Below are positions 2,426 to 41,269 of a stretch of 48,423 nucleotides of DNA, piece after piece (position 1 is the first letter of the stretch; each line of letters starts with the position of its first letter). This stretch comes from a virus. The notes beneath the pieces are model-generated. The model was given only the letters and a program-made list of their open reading frames with translations. It searched no databases and was not told the origin of the DNA. Location of the stretch: positions 1 to 48,423 of the IMG/VR virus record IMGVR_UViG_3300048927_000791; one strand, 5' to 3'. The position numbers and the translations under genes are program-made.

Positions 2426-2858
2426 GGGTTTGCTCTCCCAGTTCGGACGGGTGGTGCAAGATCGTCTCGCCCATGATGCGATTGCCGTCGTTGTCTTCTT
2501 GAACAAGGCGGTGCCCGCTGGCGGTAGTGCGACCAGGTGAATCTGAAGCGTCGTTCGTCCCCCACACTGCATTACGCTCCGGCGCCGGGTGCATGGCTTC
2601 GATCATCGCGAAGTTGGCCGCATCGACAAGGAAATGCTTATTGCCGCTGGCCCGGTACTTCGACATGCGCGCCCGCACGTCGTCGGCGGCGTTGAACTTG
2701 AGCGGATAGGCCTGGGCGACCCGACCGTATTTGTGGAAGCTTACCATCATCGCCGAAACCATGCGGGTTACGAACTTGGGGTCAAACTCAGTTACCGGGA
2801 CCCCTGCCGCAGTCATGTATTCGGAGATTGCGCTTTCCAGCTTTTCGGGAGTGCTCAT
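2418..2858 (-). CDS. Conserved phage protein, unknown function (HFLVDAANFAMIE motif)
   Basis: 146 aa. The motif KHFLVDAANFAMIEAMHP around residues 72-90 marks a family often seen in prophages next to DNA-modification and recombination genes. Its biochemical role is unknown to me. It overlaps the methyltransferase start by 4 bp, so the two are probably translationally coupled. Confidence 0.75.
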   Translation of the reverse strand: MSTPEKLESAISEYMTAAGVPVTEFDPKFVTRMVSAMMVSFHKYGRVAQAYPLKFNAADDVRARMSKYRASGNKHFLVDAANFAMIEAMHPAPERNAVWGTNDASDSPGRTTASGHRLVQEDNDGNRIMGETILHHPSELGEQTHG

Positions 2859-3580
2859 TTGCTTTGCTCCTGGGTGGAGAGGGTGGCGCGTAAAGCGTTG
2901 CCAATCAGTTCTGGGATTGCTGGGACGACGGCGTTGCCGAGGGCCGCGAGGCGGTCCACCCTATCGGGAACCCCATCATCCACTCGACAAACGGCGGGTT
3001 CGGCGCTCCACCAATCACGGTAGACAAGCTGGTCCCACCCTGTGCAAATTTCGATCGCCGGAAGCCCGTCTCGCTCGCCAGTGGGGTAGGCAATAACCCA
3101 GACGCGATCCCGCCTGTGAGGCGCGTCAAGGGAGTTAGCAGGAATACAGTGCCACTCCGCATCATACCCGATCTCGCAGAACTGGCCGAGCATTTGCTCC
3201 AGTCCGCGAGAGCGAAGGACCGGACTGTTTTCAATGATGACAACCCGTGGCCGTAGATCGGAGATAAGGCGGAACATCTCGTTCCAAAGCCCGCTTTTGG
3301 CGCCTCCGATGCCGGACATTCTGCCGACGAGGCTGATGTCTTGGCAGGGGAAACCGCCACAGATTGCGTCCACGGAAATTCCATCTGCTGCAAGCCGCTC
3401 GGCAGTGAGCTTGTTGACGTCTTGGTAGCAGGGGACGTGGGGCCAGTGCTGCGCGAGTACATGGCGGGGGAACTCCTCTATCTCACAGAATGCGACCGTC
3501 TCGAACCCCCCGGAACGCTCCAAACCAAGCGAGAAACCGCCGATGCCGCTGAACAAGTCGAGCAGGTGAAGGGGTTTCAC
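2855..3580 (-). CDS. C5-cytosine DNA methyltransferase (orphan)
   Basis: 241-aa compact m5C methyltransferase that would transfer a methyl group from AdoMet to cytosine in a specific DNA site. Motif I (DLFSGIGGFSLGLE, 7-20), motif IV with nucleophile C79 (GGFPCQ), motif VI (ENSPV, 117-121), motif VIII (HRRDR, 155-159) and motif X (GNAVVP, 215-220) are all present. The region for the target-recognition domain (about 160-210) is very short, as in other phage enzymes. No restriction endonuclease is adjacent, so it most likely protects phage DNA from host restriction or has an epigenetic role. The recognition site cannot be predicted. Confidence 0.95.
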   Translation of the reverse strand: MKPLHLLDLFSGIGGFSLGLERSGGFETVAFCEIEEFPRHVLAQHWPHVPCYQDVNKLTAERLAADGISVDAICGGFPCQDISLVGRMSGIGGAKSGLWNEMFRLISDLRPRVVIIENSPVLRSRGLEQMLGQFCEIGYDAEWHCIPANSLDAPHRRDRVWVIAYPTGERDGLPAIEICTGWDQLVYRDWWSAEPAVCRVDDGVPDRVDRLAALGNAVVPAIPELIGNALRATLSTQEQSK

Positions 3581-5610: not shown

Positions 5611-6698
5611 GCGTTCTCCATCTGCTTGGTCGGCTCATCGCCGGGATGCTGGTCGCCATGCTGGGCATCGGTGCGACCGAACGGAACATCATCAGAAATC
5701 TCGGCGACCTGGTCCGCGGTCGCGCACAGAGCCTGGATCTCTTCCATGATCGGGCGAACCACCGGACGGGCGGCCTTGCCTTCTTCGCTGTTCCACCAAG
5801 CTGTGAAGGTTGCGGTGCCGGCGCGAGCGTGCTCGCGGGCGGCGTCCATGGTTTCCTTCTGCTTGTTCGCCCCACCCTGCCCTGCGGCCCACTCCGCCAT
5901 TGCACGGCCGGTATGCTCACCCATCGGCCGGTTGCGGTCGAACAGGCCCTTGAACTGGTCGGCCACCTTGATCTGGTGCACCGGGCAGCCCGGCGCTGAC
6001 GGATCCAGGATGATCATTGCGGTCATCTCGAACATCAGGTCACCGTCGCTGGCGGGGTCCCACGGCACGTCTTGCCGGCGCGTCTTGGTGGTGCGCGCGT
6101 TCTTGGCCTTGTCGCCGAAGCCCTGCTGCATGACCGGCTTGGCGCGGGTGCAGATGATGATGTTGGTCTTGGCGCGCACGATGCGGTCGATCAGCCTGCG
6201 ATAGCGGGGCTTTACCTCCGCCCATGCAAGCTGGCTGAACTTGGCCGGGTCGACTTCATAGCGGCCATTGGCACGGACCTGCGCGGCCTGCACCAATCGG
6301 TCCAGGACCTGTGCGTGGAGGTCCAGCACGCCGCCGACGCCTTCCCATGCATGGCTGAAGCTGTCCATGATCAGCACGGGCAGTTCGGCCGCCTCGGCTG
6401 CGTCGATCACCTCAATCCAGCGCTCCGGGCCGAAGCCCACCAGCTCGCCGTCTGCGTTGATCGCAGTGAAATCGAAGTGCGCCATCTCCGGGAACGTCGC
6501 CTTGTAGTGGAGGGCGCGCTTGTTCTCGGTGTCTACGTAGCCAATCGGCGAGCCTTTCTTGCCGGTCATGGCTTCGGCGATGCCACGGGCGACACGTAGG
6601 GCGGTGAACGTCTTTCCGGTGCCGCTTCCGCCTGAGATGCCGAGGGCGATCGTCAGAGGGTCGTGGATCTCGGAGACGGGTACGAACCTGATGCTCAT
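5607..6698 (-). CDS. Sak4-like RecA-fold ATPase (AAA_24), phage recombination
   Basis: 363 aa. Walker A is GISGGSGTGKT at 20-30 and Walker B is LPVLIMDS near 110. The RecA-like core runs to about 250. Proteins of this AAA_24/Sak4 type are single-strand annealing or pairing proteins of phages, normally working with an exonuclease and an SSB. Here the RecE-like exonuclease gene is immediately upstream with a 4-bp overlap, which strongly supports that role. ATG at 6698 is preferred to a longer upstream reading because it fits the overlap and has a Shine-Dalgarno (GGAGGA). No SSB gene is recognisable nearby. Confidence 0.88.
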   Translation of the reverse strand: MSIRFVPVSEIHDPLTIALGISGGSGTGKTFTALRVARGIAEAMTGKKGSPIGYVDTENKRALHYKATFPEMAHFDFTAINADGELVGFGPERWIEVIDAAEAAELPVLIMDSFSHAWEGVGGVLDLHAQVLDRLVQAAQVRANGRYEVDPAKFSQLAWAEVKPRYRRLIDRIVRAKTNIIICTRAKPVMQQGFGDKAKNARTTKTRRQDVPWDPASDGDLMFEMTAMIILDPSAPGCPVHQIKVADQFKGLFDRNRPMGEHTGRAMAEWAAGQGGANKQKETMDAAREHARAGTATFTAWWNSEEGKAARPVVRPIMEEIQALCATADQVAEISDDVPFGRTDAQHGDQHPGDEPTKQMENA

Positions 6699-14123: not shown

Positions 14124-14308
14124 CCGAGCGCGGCGACGAGCCTAAAAAGATCGGCGACATCGTCCACGGCCTGGTGCTGTCACGCATCGCCAGCGCGCCC
14201 GACGACGCAACACGCAAGCGCTACGTCATGCTCGCCCGCGAGCACGGCGCCATCACGGCTGAGGAAGCCGAGGACTGGCTCAAGATCATGGAGCTTCGGG
14301 CAGCATGA
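14120..14308 (+). CDS. Hypothetical small acidic protein, 62 aa
   Basis: Helical, with VLSRIASAPDDATRKRYVMLA in the centre and HGAITAEEAEDWL near the end. GTG start overlapping the VRR-NUC stop; its own stop overlaps the primase start. No family recognised. Confidence 0.6.
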   Translation: MTERGDEPKKIGDIVHGLVLSRIASAPDDATRKRYVMLAREHGAITAEEAEDWLKIMELRAA

Positions 14309-16638
14309 GCAGTATGCCGAACACTGGCGTTGCACAGCCCTGGAACAGCTTCCGGGTGGCGACATTCGCTGGCCAGCACGACAGCCATATCAAGACCGGG
14401 GAGGACTATGCCACCACGTCGCTGGCGGCGGTCTTCACCATGCAGCCGCAGTGCAAGCCGAAAATGGCGGGCGACGCTATCCTGGCATCGTCCTATGCCG
14501 ATTACGACGCCCGCAGCCATGATGCGCAGCGTAGCAATGGTTCGTTCGTCGCGCTCGTCGGTGACGTCGACCATGGCGACCTTGGCCTGCCCGCAATTCG
14601 CGCGGCCGCGGAGGCATTCTCCGATGGTTCTGCTTGGCTGATCTATTCGAGCGCGCACTCACGCGACGGCGATCAGCGCTGGCGTATCCTGTTCCCCCTC
14701 TGCCAACCCTGTGGGTTCCCCGAGTGGCACGACGCCCAGTGCGCCCTGTTCGCTTTCATGGAAGACCGCGGCGTCCCGATGGATCACGCGCTCGCCCGCG
14801 CAGGCCAGCCGATCTATCTGCCGAACGTTCCCGAGCGCTACAAGGACGGCACGCCGCTGCGCGATGCGGACGGCCAGCCCTTCTATTATCAGCATGCCCA
14901 TAGCGGCGTGGACCTGCCTGGCATCGACATCAAGCGCGGGATCGTGGCGGGCGGTATCGCTGCGCTGCGCCGGCAGCAGGTCGAAGATGATCGCCAGCGC
15001 GATGAAATGCGCAAGATCGCCGAGGCGAAGTATGCCAATCGCCCGCAGCGCTCGGGTGGGAACCTGATCGAGCAGTTCAACGCCTCCACCAGCGTAGACA
15101 CCATGCTCAGCCTGTGCGGCTATCAGCAGTCGCCCAAGCGCCCTGAGGACTGGCGCTCACCGCTGCAAACCGGCGAAACCTATGCCACCCGCGTCATCGA
15201 CGGCAAGTGGTTCAGCCTGTCCGGCAGCGATGCGGCCTCGGGCTTGGGCCAGAAGTGCAAGGCGGGCTGCTTCGGCGACGCCTACGACCTCTACGTCCAC
15301 TTCAAGCACAATGGCGACCACAAGGACGCCTACCGTGCAATCGGACGCGAGCAGAGCGGCTCCAACGTCGTTCACGCCAATTTCCGCGGTGACGAGCAGG
15401 ACCCCGGCTATCAGGAGATGCCGGAGTGGATCAGCCAAGCCGCCGAGCCGGATTATGAGCTGATGATGGGCGTAGAGCCGGAAGCCGCTACGCCTACCGA
15501 GGCGAAGCCCGACAAAGCCATCAAGGCAACGCCGTTTACCTGGCGTCCAACTGCCGAAATCCCCAAGCGCCAGTGGCTCTATGGCAAGCACCTCCTGCGC
15601 AAGTTCCTGTCGCTGGACGTAGCAGCTGGCGGCGTCGGCAAATCCTCGCTAAAGATCGGCGAGGCGCTGGCCATGGCTACCGGCCGCGACTTCTACAACA
15701 AAGGGCTGCCTGAGGGCGCGCTGCGCGTCTGGATGTGGAACCTTGAGGATCCGCATGACGAGATCGAGCGCCGGCTTCACGCAACGGCCCAGCGCTTTCG
15801 CGTGCGCCCTGAGGAGATAGAGGACAGGCTGTTCGTGGACAGTGGCCGCGATCAGCCCCTCGTCATGGCGACAGAAGGCCCGAACGGCGCGATGATCGTT
15901 CGCCCCGTGGTCGACGCCCTCATCGCCGAGATGATCGAGCGCAAGATCGACGTTCTCCAGATCGACCCGTTCGTTAGCTCGCACGCCGTCAGCGAGAACG
16001 ACAACAACGCGATCGACATCGTGGCACGCGAATGGAACGTCGTCGCCGAGCGCACCGGAGCTGCTATCAACCTCGTCCACCACGTCCGCAAGCAGAACGG
16101 CACCGAAGCCACAGCGGACAGTGCCCGTGGCGCATCCTCGCTGATCGGCAAGGCGCGCTCGGTCCTCGTCTACAACCGCATGACCGAAGACGAGGCCGCG
16201 CGCCTGAACGTGCCCGAGGACGAGCGGTTCTTCTACTTCCGCGTTGATAACGACAAGGCCAACCTCGCCCCGCCAGAACGCGGCGATTGGTATCGCATGA
16301 ACAACGAGGATCTGGAGAACGGAGATAGCGTCGGCGTCGCCTGCACCTGGACGCCTCCCGATGCCTTTGCAGGCGTCACCCGGCAGCACCTCTACGCGGT
16401 TCAGCGCGCCCTCTCTGACGGTGAATGGCGCGAGAACATCCAGACCAAGGATGCATGGGCGGGCCACCCTGTCGCAGCCGTCCTGGGTCTCGATCTTGAG
16501 AAGAAGCATGACCGCAAGCGGGTGCAAACCCTGCTGCATGTCTGGGTCCAGGAAGGCGTGCTTGAGATCGTCGAGAAAGAGGATCGGAAGCGTAACGTTC
16601 GCAAGTTCGTGACGGTCGGAAGGTGGGTCGAAGCATGA
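14305..16638 (+). CDS. Primase-polymerase (AEP-like) / RepA-type AAA helicase fusion
   Basis: 777 aa, the main replication protein. N-terminal half: ALVGDVDHGD with D87 and D89, then WLIYSSAHSRDGDQRWRILFP (about 111-132), the pattern of archaeo-eukaryotic primase domains in phage primase-helicases. A middle segment (about 250-360, with LCGYQQ, WFSLSGSD and CKAGCFGDAYDLYV) resembles the linker domain seen in that family. C-terminal half: RepA/AAA_25-type ATPase, Walker A AAGGVGKSS (440-448), Walker B VLQID with D554, then NLVHHVRK and ADSARGASSLIGKAR. The last 80 residues (about 695-777) form a probable winged helix. Directly followed by the repeat-rich candidate origin. Confidence 0.88.
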   Translation: MSSMPNTGVAQPWNSFRVATFAGQHDSHIKTGEDYATTSLAAVFTMQPQCKPKMAGDAILASSYADYDARSHDAQRSNGSFVALVGDVDHGDLGLPAIRAAAEAFSDGSAWLIYSSAHSRDGDQRWRILFPLCQPCGFPEWHDAQCALFAFMEDRGVPMDHALARAGQPIYLPNVPERYKDGTPLRDADGQPFYYQHAHSGVDLPGIDIKRGIVAGGIAALRRQQVEDDRQRDEMRKIAEAKYANRPQRSGGNLIEQFNASTSVDTMLSLCGYQQSPKRPEDWRSPLQTGETYATRVIDGKWFSLSGSDAASGLGQKCKAGCFGDAYDLYVHFKHNGDHKDAYRAIGREQSGSNVVHANFRGDEQDPGYQEMPEWISQAAEPDYELMMGVEPEAATPTEAKPDKAIKATPFTWRPTAEIPKRQWLYGKHLLRKFLSLDVAAGGVGKSSLKIGEALAMATGRDFYNKGLPEGALRVWMWNLEDPHDEIERRLHATAQRFRVRPEEIEDRLFVDSGRDQPLVMATEGPNGAMIVRPVVDALIAEMIERKIDVLQIDPFVSSHAVSENDNNAIDIVAREWNVVAERTGAAINLVHHVRKQNGTEATADSARGASSLIGKARSVLVYNRMTEDEAARLNVPEDERFFYFRVDNDKANLAPPERGDWYRMNNEDLENGDSVGVACTWTPPDAFAGVTRQHLYAVQRALSDGEWRENIQTKDAWAGHPVAAVLGLDLEKKHDRKRVQTLLHVWVQEGVLEIVEKEDRKRNVRKFVTVGRWVEA

Positions 16639-16705
16639 TTGCCCCACCTCAAAAACAGGCGGTGGGGCAAGGTGTGGCAGTGTGGCGGAATGGATACCCT
16701 GAAAC

Positions 16706-16752
16706 CTGCCCCACCACCACCCCCCCCCGTAGGGGGTGGGGTGGTGGGGCAG
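16706..16752. other. Long GC hairpin in the candidate origin
   Basis: CTGCCCCACCACC (16706-16718) pairs perfectly with GGTGGTGGGGCAG (16740-16752), and five further C-G pairs form inside around a GTA loop. A T6 tract follows at 16766-16771, 13 bp after the stem, too far for a normal intrinsic terminator. It could act as a terminator-like pause, a single-strand initiation site or part of the origin. Confidence 0.6.
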
Positions 16753-16757
16753 TGGGG
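16732..16757 (+). other. G-quadruplex motif
   Basis: Plus strand: five G, T, four G, TGGT, four G, CAGT, four G. This meets the strict criterion of four G-runs with loops of 1, 4 and 4 bases, with two more GGGG runs at 16775 and 16788. It competes with the hairpin at 16706-16752 because both use the same G-rich strand. Confidence 0.65.
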
Positions 16758-16815
16758 CAGGTCGGTTTTTTGGTGGGGCTCCGAGGTGGGGCAAATTCGG
16801 AAAGGAAGATCGGCA

Positions 16816-38992: not shown

Positions 38993-39329
38993 CTTCAACA
39001 TCGAAGTGCCGCGGCAAGGTGACTGGTTCCGCGAGATGGTGCTGACCGACATCGACCGCGTGGCGATCAACCTGACGGGTTGCAGCATTGCGTGGAGTGC
39101 TCGGGCTATCGCAGGCAGCGGTGCCGTGCTGGCCACAGCTACAGTCGCGATCGTCGAGCCCACAACCGGCCGCATCACCGTGCGCTGGCATGGCCCTGAC
39201 TTCGATGCATTCGGTCTCCCCACCGAGGTCGTCCGCGCCGCTCATGATCTCAAGCTGACCTACCCTGACAGCATCATCGACGTGCTGGCGCGCGGGCAGC
39301 TCATCATTTATCCCGAGGTGACAGCATGA
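38982..39329 (+). CDS. Small beta-rich tail protein, 115 aa
   Basis: MSRDFNIEVPRQGDWFREMV, then INLTGCSIAWSARAIAGSG and LKLTYPDSIIDVLARGQLII. The pattern fits a BppU-like or baseplate/fibre-attachment domain found before tailspike genes; assignment is tentative. The ATG at 38982 lies within the end of the preceding gene. It overlaps the tailspike gene by 4 bp. Confidence 0.65.
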   Translation: MSRDFNIEVPRQGDWFREMVLTDIDRVAINLTGCSIAWSARAIAGSGAVLATATVAIVEPTTGRITVRWHGPDFDAFGLPTEVVRAAHDLKLTYPDSIIDVLARGQLIIYPEVTA

Positions 39330-41269
39330 CCGTCGAGCGCATCGAAGTCATCAACGCGCGCGGCGAGAGCTATCCCGACGTGCTGCGGCGCACTGGCCTT
39401 TTTGGTGTCCTGCCAAATGACACGGATGAGCAGGCTGTTTCAAAGCTGAATGCGGTTGCTGCGGAAAGCGCGGCTTTTGCAGAGGAGTTCTCTGGGCCCG
39501 CATATGCGACTGTATCCGCTGGCGAGGCAGCCACCACCGCAGGCCAATTCTTCCGAGTTCCGATTTCCGGTACCACTCCCGTCGAGTATGATCGGTATCA
39601 GCGGACGCCGGGTGGATCAGTTTTGGCTGCCCCTCTTGCTACTACCGTGGCACTCGCAGCTACGACTGGCGCCGGCCTTAGTGGATTCTCGCAATCGGTC
39701 GCTTATGCTGCCGGCGTTGGCAAGAAACTGCGTCAAACGCTATCGGTGACAGACGCGCCGTATAATGCAGACCCGACCGGCGCGGCGGATTGCGCGGCTG
39801 CGTTTAGTGCATGTTACGCAGATGCTATTGCACGTGGCTATGATGTAGACCTTACTCCGGGCCGCTTCAATTTCCTCTCAGCACCCACAATTCCCGCAGG
39901 CTCAATCTGTATTCGTGGTCGCGGCCCATCCCTCACTACGCTGGTGATCGCACATGGCGGCACAGCTATGCAATTCGCGCCAGCTAACGCAACGCAGTTC
40001 GTAGAGGTTTCTGGGTTCAGTTTAGAGGCGGCGCACACCGCGCCTTGTCCGCTAGGCTTCGACGTTGCATTCCCGGAAGTGTCCAGCTATCCGCTAACGC
40101 AGTTCCGGGCCCACAATATTCGGTTCGTCTCCAATTTAAATAACACGTCATCCCCTTATGCTCAAACTTGGGGACGCGGCTTTAAACTAGAGAATGTGTG
40201 GAACTCCAAGATTTTCGATGTGTCAGGTTCCAGTGCGCCAATTCCCGGCGATACGGGTAACACTGGTTTTCTTGAAGTAACTGGCGGCGATCTTGCATTG
40301 ATTGCTCCAGTTATAACGGATGTTCATTGGTACTATGGGGCCGACGTTATTCGCGCTTCTGCTTACATGGAAGGCGTTGACATATCTAATTGCGAGTTTG
40401 TCGGATTAACCCGCGGTATCTATGTACCTTCAACTACGCCAGTTGGTGGCGCAGATAACACCTACCGCTCACAGTCTGTTTGGCTTCGTTCGACGCATAT
40501 TGCCGCGCATACGGCTTGCATAGATTTTGATAATGTATTTGACTACTATCAAGACGACTGTAACTTACAGCGGTGGGCGCATTCTTCTGCAACTAATTGG
40601 ATCGGCCTAAAGCTAAACAACGTCCAGCGGCCGAACATCATCGGCGGGACGTTCGCCGGCAATGAAGGTGATGTAGGAATCACCACGGCGGGCATTGTCG
40701 CAACTGGTTCAAACTCGGCGCATGGCATCGTCACTGGTGTCGTGTTCGAGAACTGCGACACCCAATTCAGCTTGGATGGCAGCACCGCCGGATGGGTGAT
40801 CTCCGACAATAGATCTACCGGCGCCACGGCTGATGTTTACGTTCTGGATGGCGTTCATCACAAGCTGGAATGGCAGCGCACTGACGGTGTTATCCTATAC
40901 GCCAGCGATCAGATGTCCGGGCCAATCATGGGCGGCGCTTACACGCCGACGCTAACTGGCATCACAAACGTTGCAGCCGCTACCGCCTATGAGTGCCAGT
41001 ACTCTCGCGTCGGGAATATGATTACTGTCTCAGGTCGATTTGATCTCGATCCTACGACCACCAGCGTCGCAACGACTATGGATATTACGCTTCCTGTATC
41101 GTCTACCCTGGCGCTACCGCAGTATTGCTGCGGCACCGCATCAAATGCTTTAGGTGGCGCCGGCCTGATCGTTGGAAACACAGCCAATAACAAGGCGCAG
41201 TTTCAGGTAACTCCGCCGACAGCATCCAACCACGGCTATTCATTCATCTTAATGTACCGAGTAGCCTAG
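39326..41269 (+). CDS. Tailspike with pectate-lyase-like beta-helix
   Basis: 647 aa, the probable receptor-binding protein or capsule depolymerase. An N-terminal virion-binding part (about 1-130) precedes DAPYNADPTGAADCAAAFSA (about 145-164), the standard opening of phage right-handed beta-helices. Rungs such as NIIGGTFAGNEGDVGITTAG continue to about 510; a C-terminal domain (about 535-647) may trimerise. The gene is more A/T-rich than neighbours, as is common in host-range genes. No catalytic residues can be named with certainty. Confidence 0.85.
   Translation: MTVERIEVINARGESYPDVLRRTGLFGVLPNDTDEQAVSKLNAVAAESAAFAEEFSGPAYATVSAGEAATTAGQFFRVPISGTTPVEYDRYQRTPGGSVLAAPLATTVALAATTGAGLSGFSQSVAYAAGVGKKLRQTLSVTDAPYNADPTGAADCAAAFSACYADAIARGYDVDLTPGRFNFLSAPTIPAGSICIRGRGPSLTTLVIAHGGTAMQFAPANATQFVEVSGFSLEAAHTAPCPLGFDVAFPEVSSYPLTQFRAHNIRFVSNLNNTSSPYAQTWGRGFKLENVWNSKIFDVSGSSAPIPGDTGNTGFLEVTGGDLALIAPVITDVHWYYGADVIRASAYMEGVDISNCEFVGLTRGIYVPSTTPVGGADNTYRSQSVWLRSTHIAAHTACIDFDNVFDYYQDDCNLQRWAHSSATNWIGLKLNNVQRPNIIGGTFAGNEGDVGITTAGIVATGSNSAHGIVTGVVFENCDTQFSLDGSTAGWVISDNRSTGATADVYVLDGVHHKLEWQRTDGVILYASDQMSGPIMGGAYTPTLTGITNVAAATAYECQYSRVGNMITVSGRFDLDPTTTSVATTMDITLPVSSTLALPQYCCGTASNALGGAGLIVGNTANNKAQFQVTPPTASNHGYSFILMYRVA

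Follow-up and report, generated by a model that had tools for sequence, protein, structure and literature searches.

A repeat array behind a phage replication gene: a probable origin whose repeat word co-varies with a C-terminal winged helix

What is the function of the dense repeat array that directly follows the gene for a 777-aa replication protein (nt 14305–16638, + strand) in the viral record IMGVR_UViG_3300048927_000791? The window considered here is the whole 48,423 nt stretch of that record (nt 1–48,423). Within it, nt 16640–16793 very likely represents the iteron array of the phage, most likely its replication origin, read by the phage's own primase-helicase.

The original prediction described at least six repeat copies in both orientations within 152 bp, and all were recovered. 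Exact copies of GGTGGGGC lie at nt 16641 (-), 16661 (+), 16708 (-), 16743 (+), 16772 (+) and 16785 (+), spanning 152 bp, and only three more are found in the other 48 kb of the window. Near copies (GGTGTGGCA/AGTGTGGCG at nt 16671–16687 and AGTGGGGCA at nt 16751–16759) bring the total to about nine word-like sites. As 9-bp units, the sequence GGTGGGGCA makes up iterons 1 (nt 16640–16648, -), 2 (nt 16661–16669, +), 5 (nt 16707–16715, -, left arm of the hairpin), 6 (nt 16743–16751, +, right arm) and 9 (nt 16785–16793, +, directly before the next gene), while iteron 3 is GGTGTGGCA (nt 16671–16679, +), iteron 4 the degenerate AGTGTGGCG (nt 16679–16687, +), iteron 7 AGTGGGGCA (+) and iteron 8 GGTGGGGCT (nt 16772–16780, +). 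The 8-mer repeat count reaches 5–6 in the array and does not exceed 4 in any other 160-nt stretch of the window. The perfect 13-bp inverted repeat (nt 16706–16718/16740–16752) was also confirmed, and is nested in a larger, imperfect hairpin (nt 16704–16728/16738–16762) that carries iterons in both arms (nt 16704–16762) and has the apex CCCCCCCCC-GTA-GGGGG (nt 16720–16736). Folding of nt 16640–16800 as DNA is stronger than in shuffled sequences (z = -3.65). A strict G-quadruplex (G4) motif is present as a string at nt 16732–16757, overlapping the 13-bp arms. No AT-rich unwinding region was evident by eye in nt 16640–16800, which shows short A/T runs only. The cumulative GC skew of the window has its minimum at about 11–16 kb and rises after 17 kb, but decides nothing about an origin because gene orientation appears to flip near the minimum.

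The protein can be divided into an N-terminal region, a helicase and a C-terminal winged helix. The name primase-helicase, under which the gene was first described, holds for the helicase half (aa 406–598), which matches AAA_25 in Pfam (E 1e-39) and is homologous to RSF1010 RepA (1g8y, E 1e-12; profile, E 9e-23), superimposing on 1olo with Z 20.5 and rmsd 1.9 over 162 residues. The primase half fared less well: the N-terminal region (aa 1–383) is a probable primase, yet it gave no primase or other Pfam match above the cut-off and was modelled by AlphaFold2 with low confidence, which leaves AEP primase as an unproven label here; some relatives match Prim-Pol. The C-terminal domain (nt 16354–16635, +; about aa 684–777) is predicted by AlphaFold2 to fold as a winged helix. 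Structure comparison returned generic winged helices only (BLM/RECQ, PadR, FtsK gamma; best Z 7.5), and the corresponding domain of P4 alpha was absent among the matches listed. The surrounding record resembles a temperate phage, with integrase, terminase, portal and head protease genes. A cytosine-5 DNA methylase ORF (nt 2855–3580, -) covers only the first half of its Pfam model (3–163 of 324) and is possibly split or shortened, and nt 40001–41000, inside a 647-aa ORF (nt 39326–41269), have a G+C content of 0.52, where most of the window is at about 0.63.

With tblastn, relatives of the 777-aa protein were confirmed in viral contigs and at 80 bacterial-genome loci, almost all of which carry alphaproteobacterial names. 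Once duplicates were removed and plasmid and phage records added, 175 loci were testable. Behind the gene they share a layout of about 160 bp. It opens with a word in inverted orientation and continues with tandem copies at intervals of about 10 bp; a hairpin comes next, whose stem contains further words and whose apex is of the C-run/TA/G-run type, and one more word closes the array. The array was significant against shuffles at 148 of the 175 loci, and at 131 of these it was matched by none of 60 shuffles. By comparison, copy numbers above 2–3 are rare for any 7-mer in the final 170 nt of the gene. Absence of the repeats from relatives, named in advance as evidence against the idea, was not what was observed, as most relatives carry them; at fewer than 10 of the 175 loci (e.g. 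L032, L039, L098, L135, L159, L166 and L267) no array was found near the gene.

Several variations on this arrangement were seen. In alignment A4, relatives have a primase half of Toprim, Prim-Pol or RepB type, or a separate primase gene, while the helicase, winged helix and array remain linked. In ten sphingomonad loci (L137, L140, L170, L173, L176, L178, L180, L187, L188 and L190) the reading frame at the 3' end of the helicase gene continues through the array for 65–88 residues, and in most of them the translated array tail is followed by a conserved (G)NPALG-like motif. A distant relative in Roseobacter phage CRP-831 (L268, after nt 6190) has an AT-rich, TTTATACA-like word in a similar layout with a CCCTTTAGGG apex. 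At another locus (L275, nt 1445–1715, -) the same GGTGGGGCA repeats lie behind a different, DUF5906/VapE-like replication protein, and arrays of this kind may thus be used by helicases of other families.

The repeated word itself differs from locus to locus. Copies agree within a locus, but 30 distinct seven-base cores were counted in 117 loci; GTGGGGCA, GTGTGGCA, GTGGCGCA, GTGGAGCA, GTGCGGCA, CTGGAGCA, CTGACGCA, CCGATGCA, GTGAGGAA and many more were seen side by side. A locus's own word occurs in all three array segments at 57% of loci, compared with 0.65% for the word of another locus, and in the tandem region outside the main hairpin at 81 of 117 loci, compared with 2.4% for foreign words. 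Successive forward copies are mainly 10–11 bp apart. All words share the 9-bp frame (A/G)(G/C)TG-N6-N7-G-(C/A)-A, numbered here as positions 2–10, with bases 6 and 7 the most variable. Some arrays mix words differing at base 6 (G or T), which suggests that reading is loose there. The word can change between close relatives: it differs in 14 of 25 sister pairs with at least 85% helicase identity, and two Kaistia species (L139 and L133) have the words GGTGTGGCA and GGTGAGGA with the wing residues KRN and KSN, respectively.

Which part of the protein changes with the word was examined by calculating the mutual information of each word position with the 154 C-terminal residues. Residues 713, 763, 762 and 764 were singled out, although these four were chosen on the same 122 loci that provide the main statistics. 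With R763, base 9 is C at 90 of 90 called loci, and without it at none of 28. Q713 accompanies G3 in 93 of 93 cases, R or K at 713 accompanies C3 in 21 of 25, and R713 accompanies A2 in 23 of 23. Residues 762 and 764 co-vary with bases 6–7, as 713 does with bases 2–3; at 764, A7 is the usual partner of R and C7 that of K and H, G7 accompanies N, M, E and D, and C6 accompanies E/D. To reduce the influence of common descent, loci were grouped into 58 disjoint sister pairs with helicase similarity as the sole criterion. In these, residue 763 and base 9 changed jointly 14 times and separately never (table 40, 0/0, 14; p=3e-13), and the other associations were likewise strong (762 with base 7, p=3e-9; 764 with base 7, p=5e-7; 713 with base 3, p=8e-7). 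The four residues head 612 sister-pair tests, the next best value, 9e-5, falling short of them by two orders of magnitude.

The associations also have predictive value. A residue look-up, trained only on loci below 80% helicase identity, gave all five word bases correctly at 51 of 117 loci, as against 12 of 117 when the word of the nearest relative was used. In unseen genomes, a more distant set from outside the rule-making data that was brought in by joint alignment, C9 was present in 19 of 20 cases with R763 and in 2 of 6 without it (p=0.005), the latter being two loci that carry C9 despite lacking R763. There, G3 accompanied Q713 in 17 of 19 cases and C3 accompanied R/K713 in 5 of 6, while residue 764 predicted base 7 in 17 of 26 only (baseline 11). 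The rule linking 763 and base 9 was also obeyed at all 16 loci omitted from the statistics, namely the ten sphingomonad loci and six others, judged by eye.

In the AlphaFold2 model, residues 762–764 form the tip, or turn, between the two strands of the wing (753–759 and 765–771), and residue 713 falls at the beginning of the helix that starts with residue 712. Co-variation and these positions suggest that the wing tip K762-R763-N764 (codons nt 16588–16596, +) contacts bases 6, 7 and 9 of the word, and Q713 (codon nt 16441–16443, +) bases 2–3. That the C-terminal winged helix, our proposed iteron reader, physically binds the word is, judged by computation, almost certain. The further proposal is that a readable code exists, in which the wing-tip tripeptide and one other residue would specify most of the bases that vary in a 9-bp origin word, both having been rewritten repeatedly together to give dozens of mutually orthogonal origins on one scaffold, some inside the gene's own frame; this we favour, with more reserve. 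Diversifying selection on the specificity residues was considered and rejected: among 148 aligned residues ranked by change between close pairs, 762 is 29th, 764 is 21st, and 713 and 763 are near 90th. The specificity residues are not the fastest-evolving; they change when the word does.

An iteron origin beside an initiator-like protein, as originally predicted, is supported by the conserved layout and by the co-variation of word and C-terminal domain. As at iteron origins, several short repeats, some of them tandem and helically phased, adjoin an initiator gene, and they are specific for the cognate initiator as far as co-variation can tell. Origin function is probable, and is helped by pVL1_6, a circular plasmid of Methylobacterium indicum with the array, a Toprim primase, a RepA-like helicase, ParA and two toxin-antitoxin pairs, because no other recognisable replication module is present there (a Pfam scan of 38 genes recognised no other replication protein and no RepC). 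The array is likewise found on a phage-plasmid of Rhodoplanes. In the proposed mechanism the C-terminal winged helix of the phage primase-helicase would bind the 9-bp word (A/G)(G/C)TG-N-N-G-(C/A)-A, with K762, R763 and N764 at the wing tip reading bases 6, 7 and 9, and Q713 reading bases 2–3. With tandem words spaced by about one helical turn, helicase protomers would be loaded and aligned, and the hairpin with its C-run/TA/G-run apex might act as a melting or priming centre, a role for which we see roughly even chances. As reader and word are parts of a single module, their coordinated change would produce a new, non-cross-reacting origin, and this appears to have happened many times over.

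The original prediction was not supported in its account of how the hairpin is used. An apex of C-run, TA loop and G-run, searched for as a fixed pattern, is present at 70 of 122 loci compared with 3.1% of shuffles, and its loop occurs both as TTTA and as the complement TAAA, so that a double-stranded element fits better than a primase start on one strand. It had been proposed that the G-rich strand can form either structure, hairpin or quadruplex, and that switching exposes single-stranded DNA for an AEP primase, and in the window the strict G4 and the perfect 13-bp arms do overlap. The hairpin is conserved, but a strict G4 is kept at only 17 of 122 loci, and since 15 of these 17 have GGG in the word, the motif seems to be a side effect of a word rich in G; the layout is also retained with CTGACGCA, CCGATGCA or TTTATACA as the word. 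Such a switch is therefore highly improbable. Use of the hairpin specifically by an AEP primase is doubtful and was set aside, as the same array accompanies Toprim, Prim-Pol or RepB-type primase domains in relatives.

Whether the array might instead be an operator or copy-control element, through which the replication protein represses its own or the next operon or limits copy number while the origin lies elsewhere, deserves more thought, as the array lies between two genes of the same direction, its last word is just ahead of the next start codon, and co-variation shows recognition but not its consequence. Against this, the array is downstream of its own gene, the gene that follows varies among loci (an SSB-like start lies within 1.5 kb at 9 of 117), the sphingomonad clade has the array within a coding frame, an odd location for an operator, the hairpin is conserved and the words are helically phased, and pVL1_6 shows no other replication module. 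We consider it unlikely. A transcription terminator or structured RNA with co-varying stems would account for the strong folding and for stems that stay paired as the sequence changes, but not for words that track protein residues or that recur outside the main hairpin; together with the lack of a terminator call at the array and of any Rfam family at gathering score, this led us to discard both readings, which now carry very little probability. Repeat arrays are typical of centromere-like sites too, and a partition, packaging or recombination site for another protein, co-varying by linkage, can be imagined. Linkage alone is disfavoured, because its signal would spread over the whole domain, while the associations concentrate on four residues of one DNA-binding domain and persist in helicase-matched sister pairs; a site of this kind is accordingly given hardly any weight, and an origin read by the adjoining protein is preferred.

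A limited search of open papers found no description of the array, the word diversity or the residue-base code. How an initiator can change specificity jointly with all of its origin repeats is an old problem, because intermediates should replicate badly, and here close relatives with different words and few named residues make the path testable with natural alleles. If the interpretation is true, these loci would form a family of orthogonal origins governed by a protein-DNA code with predictive power, and the word would indicate which phages, satellites and plasmids are able to use the same replication machinery. The switching of words may tentatively be put down to avoidance of cross-talk, of satellites or of nucleases, an explanation that we hold at somewhat less than even.

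The locus thus appears to be a phage origin of the P4-alpha/RSF1010 style, with a specificity that has often been rewritten. The helicase of P4 alpha is of the SF3 type, unlike that of the window, which is an AAA_25, RSF1010 RepA-like protein with a RecA fold. In pRN1, P4 and RSF1010, repeats or an essential stem-loop adjoin replication proteins of this kind (PMC4234260). P4 alpha combines primase, helicase and C-terminal winged helix in one protein that binds origin repeats, unwinds and primes (PMC4234260); the window protein would resemble it in its C-terminal winged helix, predicted by AlphaFold2 and matching generic winged helices, but differs in that among its relatives the primase half is exchangeable and the word varies widely. 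With RSF1010 RepA/RepB'/RepC (PMC4234260; PDB 1g8y, 1olo) the family shares a homologous helicase and iterons with a stem-loop, but its functions are joined in a single module, either fused or as a pair, and the part of iteron reader is assigned to a winged helix carried by the helicase, with no separate RepC identified in the Pfam scan of the 38 pVL1_6 genes. RSF1010 has ssi stem-loops as primase start sites; the window family has a hairpin with a recurrent apex. The stem-loop origin of pRN1 ORF904 is essential and lies just 3' of a primase-helicase-winged helix gene, its structure kept and its sequence variable (PMC4234260), much as here, although pRN1 has an SF3 helicase and no iterons. The PrimQH proteins, PrimPol-PV1 primases of which some have a RepA helicase and a C-terminal winged helix, show the same domain order as the Prim-Pol members of the window family, and in the accessible text of PMC5862659 both this order and the idea that the winged helix recognises an origin are already in print; that text describes no origin or repeats, whereas the window family has the array, and many of its members have Toprim or unassigned primase halves. 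Geminivirus Rep and its iterons (PMC12548392), where repeat positions are conserved and sequences diverse, and the RepA_N/ori pair of PLE (PMC8263062), where binding domain and origin change together, offer parallels to the rewriting of words, and in both the diversification is attributed to conflict. Their proteins are unrelated to those described here, and it is in the window family that four winged-helix residues can be tied to single bases.
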